A stretch of 64,000 bases of DNA from Planctomyces sp. SH-PL14 (GTDB lineage: Bacteria; Planctomycetota; Planctomycetia; Planctomycetales; Planctomycetaceae). The position numbers and the translations under genes are program-made. The notes beneath the pieces are model-generated. The model ran no database searches. It saw only the letters and a program-made list of their open reading frames with translations, and was not told the DNA's origin. The stretch is taken from NCBI RefSeq assembly GCF_001610835.1, contig NZ_CP011270.1:434001-498000 (forward strand). Direction: 5' to 3'. Shown piece by piece: positions 23,072 through 27,126 of the stretch. Numbering within the stretch: position 1 is the stretch's first letter; the number at the start of each line of letters is the position of its first letter.

Positions 23072-25573
23072 ATGCCTCGGACTTCGCAACGCGCGTCTCG
23101 ATGGGTCCTGTCGCTCGCCATGCTCGGCGGCGGTGCAGCGTCCGCTGAACAGGGAACCTCGTCGGCGGTCGTGCGCGGCTTCGAAGCGGTCGACGGCCAC
23201 AGCTATTACGCCGTTTCGCTGGCGGCCGACGGTCTCGCGGAAAAACGCGGACCGCAGGACATCGTCGTCCTGATCGACACCTCGGCCAGCCAGGTCGGCG
23301 AGCATCGCCAGCAGAGCCTCGCGGTTCTCGAGGCGTTCCTCACCTCGATTCCGGCTTCCGACTCGGTTCAGGTCGTGGCGGTCGACGTCGCCTCGACCCC
23401 GCTGACGAGCGGCTTTGCCGGCGGCAAGGCGGCCCTGCAAGAAGCCCTCCCGAAGCTCAAGTCCCGCTTCCCGGCCGGCTCCACGAACCTCGGTGCGGCG
23501 GTCTCCTCCGCGGCGAAGATGGTCGAAGGCCGATCCTCGGCGGCGATCGTCTACATCGGTGACGGCCTGAGCACCGCCGCCCTGGTCCAGCCGGCGGAAC
23601 TGACCGGCCTGACCGACTCCCTCCGGTCGAAGAAGGTTCCCGTTCATAGCGTCGCCATCGGCTCGCGAGTCGATCTGCAGCTCCTCGGCATCCTTGCCGA
23701 ACGGACCGGCGGCGTCGTCGTCCGCGACCACGGCCAGACCGCCCCGGCCGACATGGCCGGCCAGCTCGCGAAGGCGACCGAAGCTGCCGTCGTCTATCCG
23801 GAGTCGCTCCAGGTCGACTGGAAGTCGGGCGAACTCTCGCCGGCCGTCGCCCTGCCGCTGCGGTCCGATCGTTCCACCGTTTACCTCGCCCGCGGAACGA
23901 ACCCCGCCGCCGCCAAGGTCCAGCTCGGCAATCGAACCTGGTCCCTGGCCGACACGAAGATCGCCTCCGGCTACGAGTTCCTGGCCCCGATGTGGCAGCA
24001 GGCCCGGCAGACGAACGGCGTCAGCGTAAGCCTGGCGGGTGAAGACCTCCTCGCCGCGGCCCAGGACGAGTTCGTCACCGAGATCGAGCGGCTCGAAGCC
24101 CGCGGAGATCGCGCCCTCGCCGCCGGCGACCGGAAGACCGCCGAGCAGGTGGGCCTGACGATCCGCCAGATGGCCCCGAACAACATCCACGCCGGCCGGC
24201 TCATCAACGGCCAGACGATCACTCTCGCCCAGGCCGAAACGCCGGCTCCTCCGGTGGCCGAGCCTCCGGTCGTCGACCCGCTGCAGAACCGGCAGTTCCC
24301 GTCGGGCCGGTCGGCGATTCAGGACGTCGAGAACTCCCGCCGTGCCCGCGCGCAGAAGCTCGCCGCCGAAGTGCAGGCGGGAATCGAACAGGCCATGGCG
24401 ATCGGCGAAAACGATCCGTCGGGCGCGATCAACTACCTCGAACAGCTCTTCGCGACCGTCAAGGCGTCCACCGACATCGACAAGGGGGAATACGACCGGT
24501 TCGTCAGCCGCGTCCAGTCGGCTCTCCTCGACGCCCGCAACCGCAAGGAAGTCCGCGATCAGGCGGCCCAGGCGATCAGCCGGCGGGAGATCGAGTTCGA
24601 ACGGCAGCGGAACATCGCCCAGCAGGCGGCCCTCGCCGACCGCGAAACGGAGCGGCTCGTTGACCGGATCCGGGCCTTGATGGCGGAAGGCTACTCGGGG
24701 AACGCCGCGGCGTTCGGCGAGGCGGAAGTCATTGCCCGGCAGATTGCCAGTGAACGGCCCGGCAGCGCTCTCGGTTCGGCTCTCGTCTTCACGACCGAGG
24801 CGGCTGGCCAGCTCGACCAGGCGGAACGGCTCCGCCAGACCCGCTACGACCGGTTCCTCGATACCCTCTACCAGGCCGAACTGGCCCACATCCCGTTCCC
24901 GGATGAGCCGCCGGTCCGGTATCCCCCCGCGGAAGTCTGGCAGGCCCTCACGCAGCGGCGTGCCAAGTGGAAGTCGGTCGACCTGCACCGCAACAGCCCG
25001 AACGAAGAGCGGATCTACAACGCTCTGGCGGCGCAGACCGAGCTCGAGTTCCCGGACAACACGCTGAAAGAGGTGATGGACTACCTCTCGCAGATCCACA
25101 ACATCCCCATCAAGTTCGACCCGGCCGTCACCGAGGCGGGCGTGAATCCGGAAGAGGCGAAGGTCTCGCTGACCCTCTCCGGGATCACCCTCCGCAGCGC
25201 TCTCAAGATCATGCTTGAGAACGTCGAAGGGACGGAGCTGACCTACATCATCGAAGACGAGATCATGAAGATCACGACGATCGATGCCGCCAATGAAAAG
25301 CGGTCGACCCGCGTGTATCCGGTCGCCGACCTCGTCATCCTCCTGATGCCGCTGGGTGGCGGATTCGGGGGCGGTGCCCTCGGCGGTGGCCAGGGTCAGC
25401 AGGGTGGTGGCTTCGGCAACCAGGGCGGTGGTGGTGGGGGCGGCTTTGGCGGCGGCGGCGGTGGATTCGGCGGCGGCGGCCAGGGTGGTGGCGGTGGATT
25501 CTTCAGCGTTCCGGCTGAAGAGGTCCGTGCCCTTCCCGGCGTCGTCAAAAAAAAACCTGCCGGCCTGAACTGA
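23072..25573 (+). CDS. Exported VWA-domain protein with STN/secretin-like domain and Gly-rich tail
   Basis: 833 residues from ATG 23072, with GGGAG 6 bases upstream. A signal peptide (residues 1-25) precedes a VWA domain with the MIDAS start DTSAS near residue 68, TNLGAA near 140 and YIGDG near 160. A long helical region rich in Arg/Glu (about 340-620) follows. Next comes a secretin/TonB short N-terminal (STN)-like segment (FPDNTLKEVMDYLSQIHNI then ITLRSALKIML). The tail has about 50 residues of Gly/Phe/Gln. It probably works at the cell surface or periplasm. The stop follows an A9 run that could shift into the next frame. Confidence 0.82.
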   Translation: MPRTSQRASRWVLSLAMLGGGAASAEQGTSSAVVRGFEAVDGHSYYAVSLAADGLAEKRGPQDIVVLIDTSASQVGEHRQQSLAVLEAFLTSIPASDSVQVVAVDVASTPLTSGFAGGKAALQEALPKLKSRFPAGSTNLGAAVSSAAKMVEGRSSAAIVYIGDGLSTAALVQPAELTGLTDSLRSKKVPVHSVAIGSRVDLQLLGILAERTGGVVVRDHGQTAPADMAGQLAKATEAAVVYPESLQVDWKSGELSPAVALPLRSDRSTVYLARGTNPAAAKVQLGNRTWSLADTKIASGYEFLAPMWQQARQTNGVSVSLAGEDLLAAAQDEFVTEIERLEARGDRALAAGDRKTAEQVGLTIRQMAPNNIHAGRLINGQTITLAQAETPAPPVAEPPVVDPLQNRQFPSGRSAIQDVENSRRARAQKLAAEVQAGIEQAMAIGENDPSGAINYLEQLFATVKASTDIDKGEYDRFVSRVQSALLDARNRKEVRDQAAQAISRREIEFERQRNIAQQAALADRETERLVDRIRALMAEGYSGNAAAFGEAEVIARQIASERPGSALGSALVFTTEAAGQLDQAERLRQTRYDRFLDTLYQAELAHIPFPDEPPVRYPPAEVWQALTQRRAKWKSVDLHRNSPNEERIYNALAAQTELEFPDNTLKEVMDYLSQIHNIPIKFDPAVTEAGVNPEEAKVSLTLSGITLRSALKIMLENVEGTELTYIIEDEIMKITTIDAANEKRSTRVYPVADLVILLMPLGGGFGGGALGGGQGQQGGGFGNQGGGGGGGFGGGGGGFGGGGQGGGGGFFSVPAEEVRALPGVVKKKPAGLN
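25547..25555 (+). other. A9 homopolymer at the end of the VWA gene, possible frameshift site
   Basis: Nine adenines read as three in-frame AAA codons six codons before the stop. A -1 shift here enters the frame of the next gene. That frame has no stop between 25555 and its first GTG at 25615 and runs on to 27126. The combined product would be about 1,350 residues. Confidence 0.5.
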
Positions 25574-25614
25574 ACGGCCGTGCCGCGGTCCGCTGGACAG
25601 CCTCCAGCAAGACC

Positions 25615-27126
25615 GTGTGCCAGAACGAACTTCCAAAACAGCGGGTTTCGAACAACCGTTCGGAGCCCGCTGTTTCTGCGCGCCCGGCCTCCCAGGTCGC
25701 ACAGGCCCCCAGCGCCGACGCCCCCCCCGCCCCCGCGGACACGACCCCTGCCGCGGCGTCGCGCTTCCCGGAGTTCAAGGGGAAGGATCCGGCGGCGGTC
25801 TGGCCGGCCTACTTCGAGAAGAACCACCCGCCCCTGTATGAGGTCCGCAAGCTCGTCACCCGGCTGCACCTGGCGAAGGAGTACGAGCACGTCATCGGCG
25901 TGATCCAGAGCGCCATTCTGAACGGCCAGGCCCAGCCCTGGATGTACGAGATCCTGGCGATGGAGATGGAGGTCCAGAAGCGTCCCAAGGAGGAGATCGA
26001 GCGGGTCGCGCTCTCGCTGACCGACTTCGGTTCGGCGGACTATGGGGCGATGATGTACTCGGGGGCGTATCTGGCGGGCTTCGGCCGGCGGGACGCCGCG
26101 CTGCGGCTGTTCCGGCAGGCGTCGAGTATGGCTCCCGAGCAGCCGGAGCCCTACATCATGGCGCTGCCGCACCTGAAGGAGGCGACCCGTTTCGAGGATC
26201 AGCTCTGGGGTATTCCGGGGGCCATCGAGCACGTCTGGACGAGGGATTATTCCACGACGCAACAGAGCGGGCGGGACGTCGGCAAGGACGTCGCCCGCAA
26301 GCTGGAAGCGGCCGGGAAGAAGGAGCAGGCGGCGGAACTCTCGCAGGCGATCCGGGAAGCGAACCGTCGCGACCTGCGGGTTGTCGCCCGCTGGAGCGGC
26401 GACGCCGACCTCGACCTGCGGATCGAAGAGCCGGGCGGAGGAGTCTGCTCCTTTGAGCAGCGATACTCGACCGGCGGAGGGATCTTCCTGCACGACGGCT
26501 TCGGCAAGGAGGCGAAGAACGCCTTCGAAGAGTACGTCTGCCCCAAGGGGATCAGCGGGACGTACCGGATCTCGGTCCGGCTGCGGAGCGGGCAGGTCAC
26601 CGGCAACCGGGTCGAACTGGAAGTGACGACGCACGAGGGTGCCGGTGAGGCGGCGGGCGAAAAGAAGGTGAACAAGTTCCTCGCGCTGGAAGGGGGACAG
26701 GCGACGTGGACCGTCAAGCTCGAGAAGGGGCGGCGGACGGACCTCCGTACGGTTCCGGCGGGGGCGATGTCGCTGCTCGGTCCCGCCCCCGCCCCCGCAC
26801 GCGGAGCCGCCAAGCCGCGCGTCGCTGCGGCGGGAGGTCGGAAGGACGGGTTGGTCGTGGCGGCGGGCCAGGGGGGCGTGCTGCGTCAGGTCCCGTTCGT
26901 TGGCGGAGGGAATGTGGTCCCCGCGGGGGGCGTCGTGGGCTTCCAGCCGGTCATCCAGATCGTTCCGGAGGGGACGCAGCTCTACGCCCGGGCAGCGATT
27001 TCACCGGACCGGCGCTATGTGCGGATCGCGGTGAATCCGGTCTTTTCGACGATCACGAGCGTGTTCAACTTCACGTTTGCCGGTGGCGCGGGGTCGGTTC
27101 AGCAGCCCGCTCAGGCGGGGCGCTGA
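25615..27126 (+). CDS. Repeat/beta-domain protein, stand-alone or C-terminal part of the VWA protein
   Basis: 503 residues if started at GTG 25615. There is no signal peptide, which is odd for a protein next to an exported one. After a Pro/Ala linker, residues 50-250 are helical and TPR-like (paired helices with FGRRDAALRLFRQASSMAPEQPEPY). Residues 255-350 form a beta domain with VVARWSGDADLDLRI, resembling the YfaP/DUF2135 type. The C terminus is Gly/Val-rich. The missing signal peptide, the open frame back to the A9 run and the absence of an ATG all suggest it is made as an extension of the 23072 product. Confidence 0.7.
   Translation: MCQNELPKQRVSNNRSEPAVSARPASQVAQAPSADAPPAPADTTPAAASRFPEFKGKDPAAVWPAYFEKNHPPLYEVRKLVTRLHLAKEYEHVIGVIQSAILNGQAQPWMYEILAMEMEVQKRPKEEIERVALSLTDFGSADYGAMMYSGAYLAGFGRRDAALRLFRQASSMAPEQPEPYIMALPHLKEATRFEDQLWGIPGAIEHVWTRDYSTTQQSGRDVGKDVARKLEAAGKKEQAAELSQAIREANRRDLRVVARWSGDADLDLRIEEPGGGVCSFEQRYSTGGGIFLHDGFGKEAKNAFEEYVCPKGISGTYRISVRLRSGQVTGNRVELEVTTHEGAGEAAGEKKVNKFLALEGGQATWTVKLEKGRRTDLRTVPAGAMSLLGPAPAPARGAAKPRVAAAGGRKDGLVVAAGQGGVLRQVPFVGGGNVVPAGGVVGFQPVIQIVPEGTQLYARAAISPDRRYVRIAVNPVFSTITSVFNFTFAGGAGSVQQPAQAGR

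Follow-up and report, generated by a model that had tools for sequence, protein, structure and literature searches.

In the leader-peptide attenuators of pyrBI and trp, formation of a terminator hairpin depends on the position of the ribosome. Few stable bacterial genes are known to have conserved transcriptional slippage; dnaX and some secretion genes are examples. The dnaX gene of Thermus thermophilus carries an A9 run with proven transcriptional slippage (PMC1088944), the tssM1 gene of Citrobacter rodentium has an A11 run with transcriptional slippage that was described in C. rodentium and Y. pseudotuberculosis (PMC4256274), and an A9 run in the IS1447 transposase was measured to slip in both directions, by + and - 1 (PMC6211511).

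The locus described here lies in a window of 64,000 nucleotides from Planctomyces sp. SH-PL14 (contig NZ_CP011270.1, positions 434,001 to 498,000), to which all positions below refer unless otherwise given. Judging from the sequence of this locus and its relatives, it is highly probable that programmed transcriptional slippage at an A9 run lets one gene give rise to two exported proteins. Gene callers see two genes at this place, and the second would need a false start.

The A9 junction in SH-PL14

ORF1, the VWA/STN gene, occupies positions 23072..25573 and has a predicted short product of 833 aa; this and all other features of the junction lie on the forward (+) strand. The A9 run (25547..25555) is read in ORF1 in the phase AAA AAA AAA, after which the frame continues CCT GCC GGC CTG AAC TGA, that is, five sense codons and the stop codon at 25571..25573. 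In relatives the stop is found 3-30 nt past the run, with a median of 15. The -1 frame, ORF2 (25555..27126), runs from ACC at 25555 onward and is open to the TGA at 27124-27126, and as the C-terminal extension of a long product it would contribute 523 codons to a predicted joined protein of 828 + 523 = 1,351 residues. An earlier note on this DNA had claimed that the VWA-STN gene ends six codons past the run (stop counted), that the -1 frame is open from there into the following frame, that the latter has neither an ATG start nor a signal peptide, and that the joined protein would have about 1,350 residues, and the sequence agrees on each point. The earliest start-type codon of the ORF2 frame is the GTG at 25615, and its first ATG, at 25942, is already within a folded domain.

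The layout of ORF1 consists of a signal peptide, a VWA domain (a VWA_3 match in Pfam, E 5e-15), long helices, an STN-like domain at 655-744, a Gly-rich disordered tail, KKK and the stop. A DTSAS metal site at residues 69-73 is present in the window and in most relatives examined, the STN domain was found weakly in 3/26 relatives, and residues 746-833 are disordered in the AlphaFold model (mba60bf1db7aa). ORF2, numbered from the GTG at 25615, comprises a disordered linker, a TPR-like alpha solenoid (59-250), a beta-sandwich (252-370) and a disordered tail with a terminal beta hairpin; a fold search with it returned only generic TPR-like proteins and no named match for the beta-sandwich. As the junction falls between predicted disordered parts, both forms should fold. 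The likely product is a protein of the envelope or surface in which a ligand-binding VWA unit would either carry a protein-interaction tail or lack it, with slippage determining the proportions.

A search of the SH-PL14 genome (a single 8.44-Mb contig) for slippage sites by the A9 pattern yielded nine distinct runs of at least nine A, both strands combined, and in relatives no other A-run of this gene exceeds A8, a length reached twice in 324 kb of its coding strand. This rarity in the genome and in the gene, set against the presence of A8-A10 at all 150 junctions compared below, excludes a chance origin of the run.

Several other A-runs of this genome were inspected as well. The dnaX gene of SH-PL14 has an A10 (G000:C1:535626-535635, L041) with stops 16-33 nt off in the slipped frames, and dnaX of most relatives checked has A9-A10 and early stops in the slipped frames; by analogy, a slippage site of the Thermus type appears to be conserved in the class. 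A further run (G000:C1:8085369-8085377, L049) lies where an SBP (PhnD-like) gene meets a PQQ-propeller frame, and A8-A10 is found at this junction in several families of the class (relatives L324-L330). This pair, which is mostly in the -1 relation, apparently +1 with A10 in G023, and has no strong hairpin in SH-PL14, represents a second candidate slippage fusion. The A9 runs L043, L045 and L048 are located within SH-PL14 coding frames and not at frame transitions, one of them directly after the start (MAKKK), and slippage there would possibly lead into short dead ends.

Run length and frame relation within the order

The junction was collected from 150 genomes of 54 genera in the same order as SH-PL14, which as sampled consists of one family; these genomes share kinship, and their number is not a count of independent events. 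A run of A8-A10 is present in 150/150, being A9 in 144, A10 in 3 and A8 in 3. ORF2 stands in the -1 relation to ORF1 in 143 genomes and in the +1 relation in 5; the other 2 have it in frame. The combination of A9 with the -1 relation is seen, among others, in Thalassoglobus neptunius KOR42 (L204), Gimesia (L209, L210, L212) and Alienimonas chondri (L245). Odd frames of the automatic table were inspected by eye, locus by locus. By this inspection L093, L102 and L162 are genuine +1 cases and L088 is in frame; the odd frames of L160, with a run of N, and of L108, with an indel in the Gly-rich tract, were rejected, both loci being truly -1. The +1 relation occurs with A9 in all three members of genus g4 (G003, G085, G086) as well as in G045 and G096, and the in-frame cases are G155 (A10, fused) and G098, whose upstream assembly is unclear. 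Both singleton +1 cases and both in-frame cases could be assembly errors.

The earlier note had proposed three options for the junction, namely programmed frameshifting, transcriptional slippage or a consensus error. The last of these is excluded by the conservation of the same junction in 150 assemblies, from which comparison the A9 junction is taken to be real and no sequencing error; an error or a decayed gene has a negligible probability, as the junction recurs in 54 genera and the reading frame beyond it is undamaged and conserved. It is also extremely improbable that the locus is phase-variable, with replication slippage in the DNA toggling the long form. A-runs are mutable, and G155 combines A10 with an in-frame fusion, but a locus that switches would be expected to vary in run length, and the run is exactly A9 in 144 of the genomes.

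The remaining two options can both account for the junctions in the -1 relation. Programmed -1 ribosomal frameshifting at A_AAA_AAA, which would make the long protein from unaltered mRNA, is consistent with an in-frame heptamer A_AAA_AAA or A_AAA_AAG of the X_XXY_YYZ type and with the strong structure of certain linkers. However, it requires the relation to be always -1, and it cannot serve the +1 genus or the two singleton +1 cases. The length of the run is held at 9 though 7 would suffice for A_AAA_AAA, and upstream SD-like sequence is not enriched (3/46 vs 3.75/46 in controls). We consider ribosomal frameshifting unlikely. Slippage gains and loses A and can serve the +1 genus, and the use of the same A9 in both the -1 and +1 relations favours it over the ribosomal shift; both shift directions appear to be usable at the run. 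Of the features expected of a slippage gene, a run of 8-9 or more A or T at a frame transition is present, and the run and the alternative frame are conserved in relatives.

Codon usage points to selection on the nucleotides. The lysine codons that overlap the run number AAA 330 : AAG 9, compared with 39% AAA elsewhere in ORF1, and at 43 loci where AAA makes up only 13% of the lysine codons elsewhere, the run codons are AAA 116 : AAG 5. It is this excess of AAA in the run, despite an AAG-preferring background, that argues for selection at the nucleotide level.

Fused and split relatives

In other families of the class, nearly all copies consist of one uninterrupted ORF of about 1,200-1,630 aa, and the fused outgroup genes inspected at the junction are without a run. 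An exception is a fused Pirellulales MAG copy (L242) with an in-frame A9 near the junction, at which slippage would shorten the product. ORF1 paralogues without ORF2 lack the run in 16/16 cases. As to whether orthologues always consist of two genes with independent starts, a point on which the earlier note had invited comparison, they do not: in the outgroups the gene is undivided, and in the order itself ORF2 is usually without a usable start.

The gene is truly split in G280 and G335 (L354, L355; family f16), with no A-run at the split. In these genomes a stop closes ORF1 after a Gly-rich tail (GAGF), and ORF2 opens with a signal-peptide-like stretch, which shows that the halves are able to work as separate genes. 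Where the split is true, the second half has gained an export signal of its own, whereas none was gained where the A9 is present. An order-wide A9 beside one-frame relatives and one cleanly split family makes the case testable.

A true fission into two genes, with ORF2 translated from its own start, would have its counterpart in family f16, and the hairpin described below would then end the first gene. Such a fission leaves the A9 run unexplained, however, and in the order ORF2 has no signal peptide. In addition, the linker from the run to the domain is stop-free in the ORF2 frame at 97/97 loci, whereas each remaining frame is stop-free at 1/97; ATG is absent from the linker in 96/103 loci and ATG, GTG and TTG are all absent in 34/103, so that a usable start is missing in at least a third of the loci. 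Fission is very improbable on these grounds.

The hairpin beyond the first stop and the proposed slippage

The ORF2 frame contains, 62 nt beyond the ORF1 stop, a terminator-like hairpin (25636..25675) with an 18-bp stem and a 4-nt loop, followed by CTGCGC, in a region with a z of -4.84; the earlier note does not mention it. A strong hairpin is present in 84/150 genomes and 37/54 genera, and by one scoring rule it passes in 71/122 loci, compared with 4/119 and 2/119 for control windows in the same genes. Hairpin sequences differ between genera, which indicates that the structure and not the letters is kept. The stimulatory structures of -1 frameshifting are usually located 5-9 nt downstream; here the median distance to the start of the hairpin is 64 nt from the run and 49 nt from the ORF1 stop, far outside the spacing of a stimulator, which further argues against ribosomal frameshifting. 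Stem-loops immediately upstream of the run, the arrangement of IS1447, are not enriched either, the mean being -6.9 vs -8.5 and -7.9 kcal/mol in controls.

The stem-loop is stable and GC-rich, as is expected of an intrinsic terminator. Around the stem end, from some two bases upstream of it to six downstream, T is enriched to 0.3-0.5 per position (32 genera), and T after the stem amounts to 5.1 of 12 vs 2.4 expected; the tract of the window itself is short (TTTCTGCG), and the window hairpin was not picked up by a strict terminator scan. No match was found in Rfam. A similar hairpin follows the stop in 8/16 of the paralogues that end with ORF1, it is rare at gene ends after ORF2 (10/78), and the fused-outgroup linkers tested contain no hairpin passing the same rule. 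We read the hairpin as a putative intrinsic terminator for the short transcript, which slipped transcripts would have to pass.

According to the proposed slippage, RNA polymerase would copy the A9 faithfully in most transcripts, and ribosomes on the unslipped mRNA would halt a few codons on, producing the 833-aa protein with the VWA domain, helices, STN-like domain and Gly-rich tail. In a minority of transcripts one A would be gained or two lost, placing the downstream half in frame, and the slipped mRNA would be translated into the 1,351-aa protein with the added alpha-solenoid and beta-sandwich. As the hairpin is situated just beyond the short stop, a transcript whose ribosomes halt at that codon would probably end ahead of the second half.

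The position of the hairpin within ORF2 hints that slippage and termination are linked. A tentative extension, possible but rather doubtful at present, is that a polymerase slip at the A9 decides, via the following ribosome, whether transcription passes a terminator approximately 100 nt later. On unslipped RNA the ribosome would leave at the first stop, the hairpin would form and the RNA would end, and on slipped RNA the ribosome would follow through the linker and hold the hairpin open. If transcription is gated in this manner, slipped copies should be over-represented among the RNAs that reach ORF2. Among planctomycetes, Planctopirus limnophila is a species for which genetic tools are available (PMC4910669).

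Slippage at A9 is already known, and it is the VWA/STN gene and its embedded hairpin that appear to be undescribed. In the open-licence literature we found no description of the VWA/STN-ORF2 gene or of planctomycete slippage genes, and no terminator-like hairpin placed to meet unslipped transcripts.

The locus shares with Thermus dnaX an A9 in a chromosomal housekeeping gene and, on the proposed reading, a slipped mRNA that yields a second length of protein. In Thermus, however, the unslipped product is long and the slipped one short, whereas here it is the long form that slippage would produce, with a terminator-like hairpin further on. The resemblance to tssM1 lies in an A-run just ahead of a stop, in the restoration of a C-terminal half by slippage and in two length variants, both of them proposed for the present locus; tssM1 belongs to a T6SS, in contrast to the VWA/TPR protein family considered here, whose A-run is conserved across an order. 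The two-way slippage at the A9 of IS1447 is what the mixed frame relations here require, although IS1447, a mobile element, has a stem-loop ahead of its run and the present case is a stable gene whose strong hairpin comes after it. As in the pyrBI and trp attenuators, ribosome position would decide whether the hairpin forms; unlike in those systems, the deciding event is proposed to be polymerase slippage within the coding sequence of the long product.
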